Shown one piece after another: positions 6,660 to 17,382 of a stretch of 32,463 nucleotides of DNA (positions within the stretch are counted from its first letter, which is position 1; every line of letters begins with the position of its first letter). The position numbers and the translations under genes are program-made. The notes beneath the pieces are model-generated. The model was not told where the DNA came from. It did no database searches and saw only the letters and a list, made by a program, of their open reading frames with translations. The DNA comes from a virus, in IMG/VR virus record IMGVR_UViG_3300042387_000059, positions 1 through 32,463 of that record, one strand, 5' to 3'.

Positions 6660-6931
6660 TGATTGATAAAATCCTTGACGAACGAGGCAAGCGTTATGGC
6701 AAGTTTGTTGATGTTGCCAGAGCAACAAGTGCAATCCAAGAAGCAGTGTTTGAGCAAATGGAGCTTGATAAACTAAACACACTTGCACCAGATCAAACCG
6801 TTGCGCTTGACATGATCTGCCACAAACTTGCAAGGATTGCTATTGGTGATCCAGATTACGTTGATAACTGGATCGACATTGCTGGATACGCTCAACTTGT
6901 TGCAGACCGCTTACAAGGACTTGAGCGTTAA
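6659..6931 (+). CDS. DUF6378-like protein (90 aa)
   Basis: The pattern DERGKRYGKFVDVA near the start, then LAPDQTVALDMICHKLARI, and a late YVDNWIDIAGYAQLV segment, match the small phage family annotated as DUF6378. That family commonly neighbours nucleotide-metabolism genes. A strong AAGGAG precedes the ATG at 6659, which overlaps the MazG-like stop; a GTG at 6656 is also possible. The conserved Asp/His/Trp pattern hints at a metal-dependent nucleotide enzyme, but no activity is established. It is the last gene of the rightward operon. Its TAA shares bases with the TAA of the convergent endolysin gene. Confidence 0.7.
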   Translation: MIDKILDERGKRYGKFVDVARATSAIQEAVFEQMELDKLNTLAPDQTVALDMICHKLARIAIGDPDYVDNWIDIAGYAQLVADRLQGLER

Positions 6932-7542
6932 CCGCCAAACAATGCCAAAGCTTGATTGGTGTGCTTGATTCGGTCATCAAGGCCGATAGTGCCGCCATTG
7001 ATCTTCTTTGTCAGAGCCAAGTGATTCCCAGACTCAGCAATTGCGTTGAGCTTCTGGGTATCCCAAAACCACCCAGCCGTTAGAGCAGCGTACTGAGGTG
7101 TAGCAACCAAGTCAGGCTCCATGATGAAGTCCACACCCAAAGCCTTGCCAGCATGGTGATAGTTGGCAGTACCAGTTAGCTGAATACAACCACGGCCACG
7201 AAACCTATAGCCATCACCAGAAGCCTCATCCCGATTTGACATACGGTTACTGTAAATACGGTTTGCAATCTTCTTTGGTTGACGCTCATAAGCAGCAGCT
7301 TCTTCAGGTGTAAATCCCCATGTTCTACGAGGTGTACGGGGGAACAACTTTAACAGGGTGGCAGCACGGTAATTCAGGTTCTCTTCCAACACCCTGAAGT
7401 TGGCACTCTCATGACCACATTGACCAATGAATGCGGCCATTTGCATAGGGCTTGTGATGCCAAACCGCTGAAATGTGTGGTTCAGCGCATCAGCCCACTC
7501 AGGCGCAATGTGTAGTTGTTTTAGTTGATCAGTTGTTACCAT
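6928..7542 (-). CDS. GH19 endolysin
   Basis: This 204-residue protein is a glycoside hydrolase family 19 (chitinase-like) lysozyme, which cuts the glycan of the host cell wall at lysis. The catalytic region AAFIGQCGHESANFRVLEEN has the first catalytic Glu at E45, with acids E53/E54 following. The family hallmark GYRFRGRGCIQLTGTANYHH is at about 111-130, and GWFWDTQKLN follows. There is no signal peptide, so it needs a holin or equivalent. It lies after the Rz gene, with a 14-base overlap, as the last gene of the leftward late operon. Its stop codon overlaps that of the rightward operon. Confidence 0.9.
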   Translation of the reverse strand: MVTTDQLKQLHIAPEWADALNHTFQRFGITSPMQMAAFIGQCGHESANFRVLEENLNYRAATLLKLFPRTPRRTWGFTPEEAAAYERQPKKIANRIYSNRMSNRDEASGDGYRFRGRGCIQLTGTANYHHAGKALGVDFIMEPDLVATPQYAALTAGWFWDTQKLNAIAESGNHLALTKKINGGTIGLDDRIKHTNQALALFGG

Positions 7543-8044
7543 TGATGATGCTCCTCATGTTTTCGTAAGCTGCCACACAAGCATTTAGCTGGTTGATAGC
7601 TTTGTCGCCTTCCGCTGCAATCTCTGCAATCAGTCTCAAGGTTTCGCGCTCGGACTGTCCTGGATCACTAGGAGCTTGGTCAGGCGGTCCACTAGGTTTG
7701 CTTCCCGCTTCATTGCTATCTCTGGCGGCAACGGGGGGATTTGGGGTGGCTTGTACGCAACTTGGGGAGGGGAGCCGCACCCTACCAGCAGCAATGAGCT
7801 TATTAAGATCAGTTTGTTTTTGAGAGACAACATCATTGGCTTTCCTCAGTTCAGTTTCTTTGTCAGCAACAACCTTTGCCATTGATTGCTCTTTGGCTCG
7901 GGACTCCTCATTTTTCTTGGCGATCTCAGCTTGCATCTCAACATCACGATCACCCCAGCCACTTTTATATCCGTACTTGTAGATTCCAAATAGGGCAAGC
8001 AGCACAAGCAGCACTGCTATGCCCGTGCGCTGTATTGACGTCAT
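7529..8044 (-). CDS. Rz-like i-spanin
   Basis: The 171-residue protein has an N-terminal membrane anchor (about residues 8-25, GIAVLLVLLALFGIYKYGYK). A long charged coiled-coil stretch follows (about 36-90), then a proline-rich middle (NPPVAARDSNEAGSKPSGPP) and a helical C-terminus. This is the architecture of inner-membrane spanins. An o-spanin gene sits entirely inside it in another frame, the classic Rz/Rz1 layout. With its partner it disrupts the outer membrane after wall degradation. Its ATG overlaps the stop of the upstream membrane protein gene, and its end overlaps the endolysin start. Confidence 0.85.
   Translation of the reverse strand: MTSIQRTGIAVLLVLLALFGIYKYGYKSGWGDRDVEMQAEIAKKNEESRAKEQSMAKVVADKETELRKANDVVSQKQTDLNKLIAAGRVRLPSPSCVQATPNPPVAARDSNEAGSKPSGPPDQAPSDPGQSERETLRLIAEIAAEGDKAINQLNACVAAYENMRSIINGNN
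7636..7836 (-). CDS. Rz1-like o-spanin lipoprotein, nested in Rz
   Basis: This 66-residue frame starts with a lipoprotein signal (MMLSLKNKLILISSLLLVGC, lipobox LVGC with acyl Cys at 20). It has a short proline-rich mature part (PPQIPPLPPEIA). It lies wholly inside the Rz gene in a different frame, and AGGAAAGCCA precedes the ATG. Outer-membrane o-spanins in many phages are exactly like this: small, Pro-rich lipoproteins nested in Rz. The predicted mature length of 47 residues fits the family. Confidence 0.85.
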   Translation of the reverse strand: MMLSLKNKLILISSLLLVGCGSPPQVAYKPPQIPPLPPEIAMKREANLVDRLTKLLVIQDSPSAKP

Positions 8045-8502
8045 GATGCTTCCTTACGCGCAAGTGCTATTTCTGCGCGTTCATCATCAGGCTCTTGATG
8101 CTCTGGTGGTGTTGTGGGAGGTGGTCCAGGTGTCCATGTCTCATCAAGTTCAGGATTCTTGTATCCCATCCAGTTGAAGTCGGGCATTGCAGGTGGTGGT
8201 GCAACGTAAACCTGTGGAGGAGGGCTTGGTGGTGCTACAGGAGGAGGATTTAAGGTCTTGGCCGCACCAGATACAGCACGTTTACCAACAATACCCCCAA
8301 TACCCCCAACGATCAGTAGCACGATGTCGTTCAGCATCTTGGTATATGCCTGATCGATAGGAGCCATCGACTTGATAGGTTGGGTCACAAAGGTAACCGA
8401 ATACAGCAATGCTGCAACGATCCCCGCAAGGATTAGCGTGATCATGATGACCACGAAACCCCAAACCCTTACCTCAATATCTTCACTGCTTAGGTGTTTC
8501 AT
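8041..8502 (-). CDS. Two-membrane-segment protein, holin candidate
   Basis: From the ATG at 8502 the 153-residue product begins MKHLSSEDIEVRVWGFVVIM. It has two hydrophobic segments, about 13-38 (WGFVVIMITLILAGIVAALL) and about 59-75 (IVLLIVGGIGGIVG), followed by a long Pro-rich, charged cytoplasmic-like tail. A TTG start at 8523 with GGAG upstream is also possible. The position directly upstream of Rz and endolysin, plus two membrane segments, fits a holin. The long Pro-rich tail (about 90-130) is unusual for one, so it could instead be a structural membrane protein. Confidence 0.55.
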   Translation of the reverse strand: MKHLSSEDIEVRVWGFVVIMITLILAGIVAALLYSVTFVTQPIKSMAPIDQAYTKMLNDIVLLIVGGIGGIVGKRAVSGAAKTLNPPPVAPPSPPPQVYVAPPPAMPDFNWMGYKNPELDETWTPGPPPTTPPEHQEPDDERAEIALARKEAS

Positions 8503-8695
8503 TAGAAGGTTTTGTTGCGTCAATTTGTTTCTCCAAGATAGGGGCCACTAAATATTCTGGACAGTCTTGAGTGAACAAGCACCGGGGCTTGGAGCATTCA
8601 GGCTTGTGGAAATTGTCCGGGTTTTGGCAAGCGTAGCGATAAGTGTTGTCACACCCCACCAGCGCCAGCAAAACAAAAATCAGTGCAATTTTCAT
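8483..8695 (-). CDS. Small lipoprotein of the lysis region (70 aa)
   Basis: The leader MKIALIFVLLALVGCDNTYR ends in a lipobox (LVGC), giving a lipoprotein with acyl Cys at 15. Asp follows the Cys, which in enterobacteria favours inner-membrane retention. The mature part contains the phrase RYACQNPDNFHKPECSKPRC with several cysteines, then CPEYLV, a pattern common in short phage lipoproteins of this neighbourhood. Function is unknown. It could be a spanin-related or superinfection protein, both being inference. Its start overlaps the preceding gene's stop by four bases. Confidence 0.7.
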   Translation of the reverse strand: MKIALIFVLLALVGCDNTYRYACQNPDNFHKPECSKPRCLFTQDCPEYLVAPILEKQIDATKPSNETPKQ

Positions 8696-8850
8696 ATGCC
8701 TAGTTTCTCCAAGAAGGCTTCAATGACTCGGTTGGCGATCTCTGGGGGCAAGAACTGAAGAAACTTAAACCCCACCCAAATAAAGGCAAGGTAGCAGTTG
8801 ATTTTGATCCACTTGTCAAAACCATCTTTGGCTTCTTTCCACTTGTCCAT
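8692..8850 (-). CDS. Small membrane protein (52 aa), alternative holin candidate
   Basis: I place the start at the ATG at 8850 (MDKWKEAKDGFDKWIKINC), just past the upstream stop. The longer frame (from 8946) would overlap the upstream gene by about 95 bases. A hydrophobic segment, CYLAFIWVGFKFLQFLPP (about 19-36), is followed by an amphipathic helix (EIANRVIEAFLEKLGI). Size and placement in the lysis region are compatible with a small holin or an antiholin, not proven. Its end overlaps the lipoprotein gene's ATG by four bases. Confidence 0.6.
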   Translation of the reverse strand: MDKWKEAKDGFDKWIKINCYLAFIWVGFKFLQFLPPEIANRVIEAFLEKLGI

Positions 8851-8851
8851 G

Positions 8852-9343
8852 TCATGAACCGCACCCGTAGTCAGAACAGTAAAAGACAATTTCCAGAATG
8901 CCCCAGAAGAGGATGATCGCAATGACAGAGATAAGCGTGATGGCAATGGTCAACTCAATCACCTCTTTGCGTCTCTTGGCTGCGTTGACTGCACGGGCAG
9001 CTTCTCTGCGCTGCTCGGCAACATCCTCTTGGTTCATCTCCGCAACACGCTGCTGGATGTTGTTCCAGATGTCCATGTTGTTGGTGGAAAAGAACATACC
9101 CTTGAGTTGTTCCTCGAAATCCCTTTGAGCCTTCAGCGCCAGTTCGATCTCAATGGCCTTGCCCATGTTGGAGCCGCCAGCCTTCTTGGCCTCTTGCGCT
9201 GCCTTAGTGGCCGTGTGCTTGGCATCAAAGTACTTGCCGATCAGCGGGCCAAGGCTTGAAACATCATCAACAGTCGCTGATGCCTTTTTGATCATGTTGA
9301 CAGCCGCGCTCACAGCGGCCATAGCAGAAATTGGATCGATCAT
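8852..9343 (-). CDS. Conserved phage protein with C-terminal membrane anchor (163 aa)
   Basis: The N-terminus, MIDPISAMAAVSAAVNMIKK, closely resembles the start of a family I know from marine and freshwater phages (typically 'M-I-x-PISA...'). A long, charged, alanine-rich helical middle (about 40-125) leads to a C-terminal membrane segment, ELTIAITLISVIAIILFWGI (about 129-148), and a short tail with cysteines. The family's function is not known. A structural or membrane-linked role in DNA entry or lysis is inference. The ATG overlaps the stop of the 26-residue gene (TAATG). Confidence 0.65.
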   Translation of the reverse strand: MIDPISAMAAVSAAVNMIKKASATVDDVSSLGPLIGKYFDAKHTATKAAQEAKKAGGSNMGKAIEIELALKAQRDFEEQLKGMFFSTNNMDIWNNIQQRVAEMNQEDVAEQRREAARAVNAAKRRKEVIELTIAITLISVIAIILFWGILEIVFYCSDYGCGS

Positions 9344-9423
9344 TACAGCCCCCTAACAACAACTAAGGCGACCTGTAGTAGCCACCACACAACAACAATA
9401 CCGATAGCAAGTTTCACTCTCAT
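9343..9423 (-). CDS. Tiny membrane peptide (26 aa)
   Basis: The reading frame MRVKLAIGIVVVWWLLQVAL continues for 6 more residues, ending in RGL. It is almost one continuous membrane segment with basic residues at both ends. The ATG overlaps the previous stop (ATGA), and the stop overlaps the next start (TAATG). Such precise junctions on both sides support translation of this very short frame. It may act as a pinholin-like or regulatory peptide; function is unknown. Confidence 0.55.
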   Translation of the reverse strand: MRVKLAIGIVVVWWLLQVALVVVRGL

Positions 9424-9512
9424 GAAAATGCCCAAGTGAGAATACGGAGACAATAGAGGACAAACCCCGTAAGAACTGCTGCTCCCAAAATGGCAACAGC
9501 AAGATCTTTCAT
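9420..9512 (-). CDS. Tiny membrane peptide (30 aa)
   Basis: The frame MKDLAVAILGAAVLTGFVLY continues to a total of 30 residues, ending CLRILTWAFS. It forms a single hydrophobic segment with an acidic/basic N-terminus. Its ATG overlaps the stop of the 742-residue internal protein gene, and its TGA overlaps the ATG of the 26-residue peptide. Together they form two successive one-pass peptides. Function is unknown; membrane insertion during lysis is a plausible guess. Confidence 0.55.
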   Translation of the reverse strand: MKDLAVAILGAAVLTGFVLYCLRILTWAFS

Positions 9513-11737
9513 TGCACACCGTACTGAGGCAACATTCCAATTCCGTAGTTGGCTAATGGATCGGTGGTAATCCTGTTTAGCAATCCTGGGACTCTAGGAG
9601 TTGTGTTTGGCAACATCCGATTTTGAAATGGTGCGCTAGTAATTGCAGAACGAACCAATGGCCGACCAGCAACAGCGGCCAACAAGCTTGGGTTACCAGA
9701 ACTAGCAGCGGCAACACCAGCAGCACCAACATCAAGTGGGCTTATGCCGGGAACACTACCAATCCTTGCTACGTTCTGGAAGGCAGTTGGAAAGGCAGCA
9801 GCAGCGTTAGATACGGCCTGAAGTTCAGCAGGAACAATCTTTCCAGCAGCAGCACGTTGACCCAACTTAGCACCAGATACATCACCAGTAGCTGCATTCA
9901 ATGATTTCTCAATGGTATAGCTCTTGGCAATGTCTTGACGAGCCTGTTTAAAGTTACTCATCACATCTGGTTGATTGAACTTTTGCAGGTTACGTTCTGC
10001 AAGATCTTCAAGTTGTTGAGAGGCAAACTTTTGCGCCCTTCCCAAGCTTATATTTCTTGCATCGCCAGATGATAAGTTTGTTTCAGCATCACCCCGCAAC
10101 CTTTTAATTTGCTCAACCAGACCATCGCCATTAAAACTAAGCTGCTTAAGTCCGTTAAGAACATTAAGTTCAGCACTGACATCTGTAGTGTTAGCAAGCT
10201 TTTGCAAATCAGCAATACGCTTATTGACATCACCAATAAATGTGCGATCTGTGTAGTAAGCAGGGTTGGACCTCAAAGCATCGTAGGCTTGACCTTTGAC
10301 TTCCCGGTACTGCTGCAAAACTTGAGGAGTGATCGGTGTATCAGGAGCAAGACCCAAAGCCTTACGAGCCTGAGTGTTGATGACTTCCTGATTCTTGATA
10401 GAAGCAACCTGACTTGTCTGTTGTTTGCCAGAAAAACCCTCAAGCAATCGATTCAAAATCGTAGGATTGACTTGAGAAGGCGGCAGTGTTGCACCCTGAG
10501 CAACAGCTTGTTGAGCAACTTGTTGTGATTGCGTTAAAGGAGCCACCTGACGAGGTGTTGTGGCTGCACCAGTAGCAGCAAAAGGAGCAGCAAGCAAAGT
10601 GCCAGCAAGTATTTCGTTACTCAACTGAGCAGGGTTGACAGTACCAGTTTCTGCCAACTGAGCAGCAGTAGAGGAAACAGCACCACCACCAGCAGCAGAA
10701 CCAAGATTCTGTACGGCAGCAGCAGTACGTGGAGCGGCTTGAGCAACAACCCTAGGTGTAGCAGTCGCCAATGAACGCTGAATGCCACCAGGAAGAGCTA
10801 GGTTGAGTGGATCAGTCAATGCCGTACCGAGACTACCAACAAGCAGTCCGGGGCGCTCCTGAGCCGTTTTAGCAACCCCACTAATGATGTCGCTGATGGA
10901 CTGTGTAGGAGCAGCAGGAGTAGGTGCAGCAGGAGTTCTGCCCATGTACTCATCAGAAACTCCAAGACTACCCAAGACATTTTGGATGCCTGTATTGATC
11001 AGGTTACCAGCACCCATTGCCAATTGGCCTGTGGTTGTCTTGCCACGAAACACATCCAAAGGATTGAAGCTGGCACGAACGTCTTGCAAGAATTGATTAG
11101 GTGGCTGATTAGCTTGCGCTCTAACAGCGTCAACAATGTTGGCTACGTTTGGTGTTGGACGGTTAGTAGGTGCTGGCGCTGGTGCAGCAGAGAACGGAAC
11201 AAAGTCATCAGCCGCTTGTTGAGTAGGCTGCATTGAGCGTGTACTTTGCTGATCACCCATACCCTGAGGAAAAGAAACATCGATTGCGGTGTCTCTTCCC
11301 TTTTGAGGTGCTGCCTCAAATGGAACAAAATCATCGTCTGTAGGTTTAGACATAAAGTTTTGGACCTTCTTCACATAGTTTTGGGTTTCTTTGAATGGTG
11401 GAACTCCACCATACTTTTCCACATTACCAGGACCGGCGTTGTAAGCAGCAAGAACCAATTCAGGTGAAGAAAAGCGTTGGCTCAGTTGACCAAGATACTT
11501 CACGCCACCACGGATGTTGTCAGCCCAATCCATGCGGTTAACGCCAAGATCTTTGGCAGTACCAGCCATCAACTGCATTGGACCAAACGCAGTCTCTCCT
11601 GATCGTGTTTTAGGACCACGAGCATCAAACTTGCCACCAGACTCAGCTTCAATAACGCCTTGCACCAAAGACAGAGGAACCCCTTGGCGCTCTGCCTCTT
11701 GAGCAGCGAATGCAAAGATTTCGTCTTTAGTTGCCAT
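9509..11737 (-). CDS. Internal virion protein with lytic transglycosylase domain
   Basis: The first about 130 residues form a soluble-lytic-transglycosylase domain. Motifs seen are VQGVIEAESGG with the catalytic Glu at E32 (the ES motif), FGPMQLM (51-57) and LAAYNAGPGNVEKYGG (about 96-111), followed by PPFKETQNYV. Such domains at the head of large phage structural proteins open the peptidoglycan during DNA entry. A ten-residue motif DDFVPF(E/S)AAP occurs twice (135-144 and 177-186). The remaining about 550 residues are Ala/Gln/Pro-rich with helical heptads, as in ejected internal proteins. At 742 residues it is the last large gene of the virion block. It follows the 517-residue protein with a TAATG junction. 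Confidence 0.8.
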   Translation of the reverse strand: MATKDEIFAFAAQEAERQGVPLSLVQGVIEAESGGKFDARGPKTRSGETAFGPMQLMAGTAKDLGVNRMDWADNIRGGVKYLGQLSQRFSSPELVLAAYNAGPGNVEKYGGVPPFKETQNYVKKVQNFMSKPTDDDFVPFEAAPQKGRDTAIDVSFPQGMGDQQSTRSMQPTQQAADDFVPFSAAPAPAPTNRPTPNVANIVDAVRAQANQPPNQFLQDVRASFNPLDVFRGKTTTGQLAMGAGNLINTGIQNVLGSLGVSDEYMGRTPAAPTPAAPTQSISDIISGVAKTAQERPGLLVGSLGTALTDPLNLALPGGIQRSLATATPRVVAQAAPRTAAAVQNLGSAAGGGAVSSTAAQLAETGTVNPAQLSNEILAGTLLAAPFAATGAATTPRQVAPLTQSQQVAQQAVAQGATLPPSQVNPTILNRLLEGFSGKQQTSQVASIKNQEVINTQARKALGLAPDTPITPQVLQQYREVKGQAYDALRSNPAYYTDRTFIGDVNKRIADLQKLANTTDVSAELNVLNGLKQLSFNGDGLVEQIKRLRGDAETNLSSGDARNISLGRAQKFASQQLEDLAERNLQKFNQPDVMSNFKQARQDIAKSYTIEKSLNAATGDVSGAKLGQRAAAGKIVPAELQAVSNAAAAFPTAFQNVARIGSVPGISPLDVGAAGVAAASSGNPSLLAAVAGRPLVRSAITSAPFQNRMLPNTTPRVPGLLNRITTDPLANYGIGMLPQYGVQ

Positions 11738-16519: not shown

Positions 16520-17176
16520 TTATTGGTTAGGTAGGTTAGACACAAACGTCATGGTAGCAATAGCTGATGGGATTGCTGGCCTAGTTGGGCTTGTACTTGC
16601 AGGAAATGCCTCAAGAGTAACATCAAGACTTGTGACTCTCCCAACAATTTCAATGTAGTCACCCGCTGATAGACTTTCCATGAAGTTTAGTGCTGCAACA
16701 ATGTGAGATGCGTCACCAGTAGACTTACGAGCGGCGACATGAAAACGACTGTTTGAATTGGGAATGTTGGTTCCGTTTTTGCGAAACCATATATCAAAGT
16801 CCTGACCATCGTTGCTTACATTCTTGATTTGCAAAGAAAACTGCAAATTCCAAATTCCATCTACAGCAACTGTAATCCGTGAATTGCTGGCAATGCTTAC
16901 GCCATTAGAAAAGTCTGTACTTGGAAAGAAAACAGGATAGGCATCAGTTGTACTGGTAGCAACTTGGTCTGTTTCGTTATGAAAAGCACCATAGGGAAAG
17001 TTAAGGTACTTTCCACCAGAAGGGCCAATCAAAGAACCAATGACGTTAACAATCTTGGTAAAAAACAACCTCAAGATGCCATTGTTTTGGTTCTGGACAT
17101 CCTGAGAATAGACAGCACCCGACAAGCCTAAAGAAGGCAAGGCAGGATTGTCTAATTGTTGTTTGATGTTAGCCAT
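16520..17176 (-). CDS. Tail-associated protein with C1q/TNF-like beta domain (218 aa)
   Basis: A helical N-terminus (MANIKQQLDNPALPSLGLSG) is followed by a stretch typical of jelly-roll domains: VDGIWNLQFSLQIKNVSNDG, then DIWFRKNGTNIPNSNSRFHV. Such modules trimerise and sit at fibre tips in several phages. The gene lies directly upstream of the propeller-like protein (gap of a few bases) and downstream of the XhlA-like protein. It may be a fibre or a decoration protein. Fold assignment is from pattern only. Confidence 0.6.
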   Translation of the reverse strand: MANIKQQLDNPALPSLGLSGAVYSQDVQNQNNGILRLFFTKIVNVIGSLIGPSGGKYLNFPYGAFHNETDQVATSTTDAYPVFFPSTDFSNGVSIASNSRITVAVDGIWNLQFSLQIKNVSNDGQDFDIWFRKNGTNIPNSNSRFHVAARKSTGDASHIVAALNFMESLSAGDYIEIVGRVTSLDVTLEAFPASTSPTRPAIPSAIATMTFVSNLPNQ

Positions 17177-17382
17177 TAGAGTCCGAAAATCTTTTTAACC
17201 ATCTCAGCAGCAACACCTGGACCGAGCAATACAGCAGCAATTACCGCATAAAGCAGATACTCAATTTTTGCCATGCGCTTGGAGCCTGACTCAAAAGATT
17301 TTTGGATGCCCTCATAGCGATGAGCGCAAACTTGCTCATGCGTAGTCAATCTGGCCTCCGTTGCATCTATCTGTTCGCTCAT
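17176..17382 (-). CDS. XhlA-like small membrane protein, holin-related candidate
   Basis: The 68-residue product has a charged helical N-terminus (MSEQIDATEARLTTHEQVCA, about 1-45). It ends with a hydrophobic segment (IEYLLYAVIAAVLLGPGVAA) and the tail EMVKKIFGL. This coiled-coil plus C-terminal membrane anchor is the layout of XhlA/haemolysin-type accessory holins. It lies among tail genes, 10 kb from the endolysin, so it may instead be a virion membrane protein. It shares the TAATG-type junction with the gene below. Confidence 0.55.
   Translation of the reverse strand: MSEQIDATEARLTTHEQVCAHRYEGIQKSFESGSKRMAKIEYLLYAVIAAVLLGPGVAAEMVKKIFGL

Follow-up and report, generated by a model that had tools for sequence, protein, structure and literature searches.

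Multi-part control of phage lysis is itself already known. For phage P1, one account (PMC9025707) describes the holin LydA, the antiholin LydB, LydC, the pinholin LydD and LydE. The locus described here resembles P1 in that one phage carries several small membrane lysis proteins, one of which is accessory to timing. It differs in that LydC and LydD, at 93 aa and 84 aa, are each predicted to have two segments, and the genes of P1 are spread over several operons (PMC9025707), whereas the two smallest proteins of our locus, s30 and s26, have 30 and 26 aa and one segment, and their overlapping genes belong to one cassette. In phage T4, a second source (PMC8385771) presents RI as a small periplasmic antiholin with an N-terminal signal, which regulates lysis via the holin T. 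Here the likeness is a functional analogy only: the gene position occupied by s26 (the s26 slot) encodes small, probably exported cysteine proteins in other phages. On the other hand, s26 has no periplasmic domain, and neither s26 nor the slot proteins tested matched an antiholin family.

A further comparison is offered by XhlA-XhlB of the Bacillus prophage PBSX, in which a small membrane protein and a lysin come after a short protein that bears a C-terminal segment. The same order is found where the short protein x59, with its C-terminal segment, precedes s30 and an endolysin gene, although x59 has no XhlA family match and s30 is far smaller than XhlB. A 69-aa substitute of x59 matched the PHROGs family ‘hemolysin’ only at E 0.095. 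The curated holin family GTA_holin_3TM (PF11351) is found within one s30-containing cassette (locus L173); however, this gene is a neighbour in relatives and not part of the chain studied here, and tm153, the membrane protein in our phage, has no PF11351 match. The setting of lysis time in uncultured phages is little understood, and genes of 26–35 codons are easily omitted from annotation. If a conserved micro-protein accompanies several unrelated kinds of endolysin and holin-type gene, this would indicate a general step in holin control that does not depend on how the holin is folded, and a protein of the size of s30 is small enough for study by expression, deletion and crosslinking. In the open-licence literature covered by the terms searched, judged by titles and the beginnings of abstracts, the s30 and s26 families have no apparent description.

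The window, which is the whole 32,463-base virus record, derives from an uncultured tailed phage; virion genes, among them one with a portal match (phrog_1216), are found on its minus strand. On the same strand, an ejection-type gene is followed in order by s30, s26, p163, s52, a lipoprotein-like gene, tm153, Rz/Rz1 and a GH19 endolysin gene. These features, and an x59 homolog, are as follows.

9509–11737, minus strand: 742-aa ejection/transglycosylase-type protein (phrog_669, phrog_2013 and phrog_342 matches); its stop overlaps the s30 start (ATGA)
9420–9512, minus strand: s30, 30-aa single-segment predicted membrane protein, MKDLAVAILGAAVLTGFVLYCLRILTWAFS, hydrophobic segment 4–22
9343–9423, minus strand: s26, 26-aa single-segment predicted membrane protein, MRVKLAIGIVVVWWLLQVALVVVRGL, from hydropathy and conservation
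8852–9343, minus strand: p163, 163 aa, predicted all-helical, with a C-terminal anchor (segment 128–146) and a Cys-pair tail; phrog_32327 (function unknown)
8692–8850, minus strand: s52, 52 aa, conserved and weakly hydrophobic, from alignment and pN/pS
8483–8695, minus strand: 70-aa Cys-rich protein resembling a lipoprotein, with an LVGC lipobox by eye
8041–8502, minus strand: tm153, 153-aa two-helix membrane protein with a Pro-rich tail, candidate pore former; phrog_25359 (function unknown)
7529–8044, minus strand: Rz-like inner-membrane spanin (phrog_1327, E 2.7e-8)
7636–7836, minus strand: Rz1-like outer-membrane spanin, nested within Rz in another frame (phrog_3198, E 2.5e-8)
6928–7542, minus strand: GH19 endolysin (PF00182 above cut-off, E 6.4e-13; phrog_181, E 1.1e-72)
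17176–17382, minus strand: x59 homolog, 68 aa, with a C-terminal hydrophobic segment, 8 kb from s30

The coordinates and open frames of the chain of small ORFs, which the original prediction had placed after the ejection gene, were verified on the minus strand. The junctions had been described as ATGA or TAATG throughout, and this holds for the ejection gene and s30 (ATGA), s30 and s26 (ATGA), s26 and p163 (TAATG), and s52 and the lipoprotein gene (ATGA), with p163 and s52 as the exception: they are separated by a 1-base gap (TGA-C-ATG) and do not overlap. The C-terminal anchor that had been assigned to the 163-residue protein was recovered as its single hydrophobic segment. The 52-residue ‘membrane protein’ is a conserved ORF, but its copy in the window has no segment above threshold. 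As a control for chance, 20,000 first-order Markov sequences with the composition of the region were generated, of which 6 contained a comparable two-ORF chain; the conservation of s30 and s26 in relatives is stronger evidence that they are proteins than this figure.

Conservation was analyzed in a set of 83 loci, each with a p163 match, consisting of the best 80 of 137 viral loci from the p163 scan, the window and two annotated records. Profiles found s30 in 47 of them and s26 in 37; the corresponding numbers were 62 for s52, 58 for the lipoprotein, 57 for tm153, 48 for each of Rz and Rz1, 61 for GH19 and 11 for GH24. The NTGA overlap between s30 and s26 was retained in all 36 loci carrying both, and the s26/p163 junction (n = 37) was TAATG or TGATG in 20, NTGA in 14 and of another kind in 3. 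The pN/pS ratio was 0.42 for s30 (32 distinct sequences), 0.23 for s26 (21) and 0.26 for s52 (28), and differences were enriched at codon position 3 in all three (column-permutation p 5e-5, 3e-4 and 5e-5, respectively). With 66 s30 sequences thinned below 90% identity, pN/pS was 0.47 and pN was smaller than pS in 2124 of 2145 pairs; s26 has nine invariant residues across 11 sequences. These results indicate that s30, s26 and s52 are real conserved proteins, and the proposal that the first two are small genuine genes is upheld. On account of the codon-position-3 bias and the pN/pS values below 0.5, we reject the idea that s30 and s26 are mere translation signals. We also looked, in 78 usable p163 loci, for the small frames decaying while the larger genes stay. 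Copies of s30 were intact in 45 and absent from 33, with no decayed remnant found among the latter; s26 was intact in 36 and absent from 42, among which a remnant search gave a single negligible match (E 0.36). Decay in relatives is thus rejected, the copies being either intact or cleanly absent, which is the reverse of the pattern that would have spoken against the original prediction. Searches of PHROGs (best E 0.035 for s30 and 0.054 for s26) and NCBIfam gave no useful family match for either protein, and tblastn with one 35-aa s30 member, a query so short that sensitivity is limited, matched one of 50,697 phage records, from an uncultured phage.

Hydropathy prediction gave one hydrophobic segment in 46 of 46 s30 copies and in 37 of 37 s26 copies, and both proteins look membrane-spanning. 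Most copies of s30 (39 of 46) and of s26 (29 of 37) have no Shine-Dalgarno (SD)-like site ahead of them, while 53 of 81 p163 genes have a strong one, and in the window the ribosome-binding-like AGGGGG of p163 is located in the last codons of s26 (Arg-Gly). A Lys/Arg second codon in part dictates the ATGA with which s30 starts, and therefore the meaningful count is that of upstream stops overlapping the start, which was 40 of 48 where x59 precedes s30 and 9 of 10 where an slt-type ejection gene does. Taken together, the usual absence of SD-like sites and the NTGA overlaps suggest that translation is coupled and that s30 and s26 would be produced by termination-reinitiation from the preceding gene, as single-span inner-membrane mini-proteins. 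Cysteines are conserved across the membrane proteins of the cassette (s30 C21, s52 C19, p163 C156/C161). Residue C21 of s30 is kept in 92% of 93 variants, and the p163 pair is present near the end in at least 90% of 40 aligned members.

To describe the surroundings of s30 independently of p163, we used a scan with s30 only, blind to context, which gave at least 78 viral loci, with s30 in all 78 listed. Each of the 53 listed loci that have at least 2 kb downstream carries an endolysin-type gene behind s30. In 49 of these it was assigned to GH19 or GH24 by model, in L173 to GH108 (PF05838) and in L217 to M15 (PF08291) by Pfam, and in L153 and L154 it is GH108-like by resemblance to L173 only; of the 25 among the 78 listed loci with less than 2 kb downstream, 3 also showed an endolysin. 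Of the 70 p163 loci whose downstream sequence reaches at least 2.3 kb, 68 have GH19 or GH24, and the remaining two carry an M15 gene (L046) and, by eye, a lysozyme-like ORF (L074). Members of the p163 family lie behind s30 in 55 of the 78 listed loci; elsewhere the next gene can instead encode a protein of about 200 aa, 138 aa, 105 aa, 92–95 aa or 37–50 aa. The preceding gene, counted over 108 s30 contexts that were deduplicated by identical flanks only, with close relatives counted separately, is x59 in 48, an slt-type ejection gene (the arrangement of the window) in 10 and another ORF in 50. Judged by these neighbourhoods, s30 is a general companion of several kinds of lysis cassette.

Genes of holin type, which we label tm153, hol167 and gtahol159 (names coined in this analysis), lie downstream of s30 in 71 of the 76 contexts that extend for at least 2.8 kb; hol167 occurs with GH24 in 28 contexts, and gtahol159 with tm153 and GH19 in 5. 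For hol167 and gtahol159, the only matches were PHROGs of unknown function, with no Pfam holin match, and tm153 matched no Pfam family (PF11351 included) and no named holin family. Consequently, the presence of another holin is firm only for L173, in which the curated PF11351 adjoins s30 (E 1.1e-9, above cut-off), and for MW202879, in which phrog_3427 ‘holin’ adjoins a p163 homolog; PF11351 was below cut-off in L162 and in the p163 locus L046. Because holin-type genes co-occur with it, including PF11351 in L173, s30 is unlikely to be the sole holin of its cassette. In our phage, tm153 is the best holin candidate. It has hydrophobic segments at 15–33 and 55–73, and its low-confidence model (mean pLDDT 66.9) shows two N-terminal helices and gave no structural match below E 0.001.

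The s26 slot, directly after s30, holds either s26 or cysteine proteins of 37–50 or 92–95 aa with a hydrophobic start, which, judged by eye, are probably exported. Since the slot elsewhere encodes small, probably exported cysteine proteins, we suggest that s26 is oriented N-in/C-out and that the slot is one for a periplasm-facing partner. Two loci (L133, positions 1012–1485, and L134, positions 65–538) encode a 157-aa, probably exported protein whose first ~17 residues are nearly identical to s26 (E 5e-10 and 2e-10 for the s26 profile against the protein starts). Judged by eye, both starts resemble signal peptides, and in L133 the s26-like start runs into a signal-peptidase-like site; the L134 locus ends before the position of s30. 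These two cases suggest that a free mini-protein and a signal peptide have been exchanged.

The third member of the chain, p163, matches phrog_32327 at E 1e-13 over residues 1–150. Across 40 aligned members its N-terminal part is strongly conserved and the segment is variable. Its predicted model (mean pLDDT 72) is all helical with one long final helix; matches of this model in BFVD up to E 0.03 were uncultured-phage or unnamed proteins, and in the PDB there was no fold match below E 0.1 and only weak sequence matches (best E 0.23). We propose that p163 is helical, faces the cytoplasm and is anchored by its C-terminus, an orientation suggested because an Arg/Lys-rich stretch precedes the segment. 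Divergent relatives of 148 and about 221 aa occupy the same place, and a scan of a genome collection with p163 gave a single match, on a contig from a metagenome bin of Rhodoferax, which is too slight a basis for assigning a host. Two T7-like roseophages, CRP-403 (L222) and CRP-171 (L226), have a p163 relative between the tail fibre and DNA maturase A genes, an interval that we take to be the T7 holin position, and in CRP-406 (L224) the relative is flanked by two lysins. In Pelagibacter phage Mosig and Roseobacter phage CRP-212, a p163 relative does not adjoin an annotated lysin, which counts against a strict link to lysis. One of the relatives in the three cultured roseophages CRP-403, CRP-171 and CRP-406 is annotated ‘peptidase’.

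The chain would thus form the front half of a phage lysis cassette, and its tiny proteins probably tune the timing of host-cell bursting. We judge it just on the probable side that s30, s26 and p163 take part in lysis control as accessories to a separate holin. They would bind or tune that holin, tm153 here, with both the binding and the direction of the effect being putative, and Rz/Rz1 and the GH19 endolysin would then complete lysis. The s26 slot would hold a periplasm-facing regulator like the T4 antiholin RI, with s26 as its membrane-only version; larger cysteine proteins occupy the slot in other phages. The original prediction had gone further in one respect, proposing an unusual multi-part holin or antiholin system. 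The genuine frames, their location inside a lysis cassette with spanins and endolysin, and multi-part lysis control agree with that proposal; it is not supported as regards the holin itself, which s30 or s26 is unlikely to be, with separate holin-type genes co-occurring and s26 being optional. Against an accessory role stands the finding that s30 and s26 are dispensable, being missing from 33 and 42 of the 78 usable p163 loci.

Gene neighbourhood alone could reflect another late membrane role. It is unlikely, in our estimate, that the proteins are late membrane guards that exclude superinfecting phages or protect the envelope and are linked to the lysis genes only by lying in the same late operon. 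Such guards would suit a chain that combines small membrane proteins with a conserved lipoprotein-like gene rich in Cys, and the clean presence/absence variation between phages, but not the association with unrelated kinds of endolysin gene; moreover, the lipoprotein gene was not seen in GH24 cassettes among the s30 loci listed. Less likely again is that s30, s26 or both are themselves the pore formers, as holins or pinholins of very small size that assemble into oligomers within the membrane. Although the single segment in every copy analyzed (46 of 46 and 37 of 37) and the endolysin-type gene after s30 in all 53 listed loci with at least 2 kb downstream would be expected of holins, holin-type genes are already present in 71 of 76 contexts (firmly named in L173), many loci lack s26, and the endolysin can be retained where s30 is absent. 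Unlike these proteins, known pinholins (S21, for example) have two segments and about 70 residues.

Two other explanations appear very improbable to us. The near-identity of the first ~17 residues in the L133 and L134 proteins, together with the AGGGGG of p163 within the Arg-Gly codons of s26, might mean that s26 is the relic signal peptide of a lost exported protein, retained for the p163 ribosome-binding site. However, s26 is under purifying selection (pN/pS 0.23, nine invariant residues in 11 sequences), and hydrophobic residues replace its cleavage-like region, by eye. Slightly more improbable still is a virion or DNA-entry role as a component of the preceding ejection machinery: an slt-type ejection gene stands directly before s30 in the window and in 10 of the 108 contexts, but the preceding gene varies, being x59 in 48 contexts and some other ORF in 50, while the downstream lysis genes persist.

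Accessory control of a separate holin is thus the reading that we prefer. A broader version of it, which we consider rather doubtful, is that s30 represents the first member of a widely distributed family of ~30-residue lysis timers in uncultured phages, with a second slot for a periplasm-facing partner of 26–157 residues. In the same doubtful version, the single-span s30 would be coupled to any preceding late gene and serve unrelated holins (the two-helix tm153 and 3-TM types) and endolysin classes (GH19, GH24, GH108 and M15). If true, one conserved micro-protein would regulate many different holins.

In s52, an alignment of 15 sequences shows invariant Cys-Tyr (the Cys being C19) and Leu-Pro. 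Its hydrophobic segment exceeds the threshold in 20 of 61 copies, the window copy not being among them; because the protein is weakly hydrophobic, the term ‘membrane protein’ is less sure for s52. The window copy of the 70-aa lipoprotein-like protein matched no Pfam, PHROGs or NCBIfam family, and in most copies of this family a conserved Cys-rich stretch ends in PEYLVAPILEKQI. Although x59 lies 8 kb from s30 in the window, it stands directly before s30 in many relatives, and of 10 related records searched, 7 contain an x59 match; it looks as though a structural block had been placed between x59 and s30. An optional gene for a charged protein of 57 aa (c57) is located between s52 and the lipoprotein gene in 17 of the 83 loci, L013 and L020 among them.
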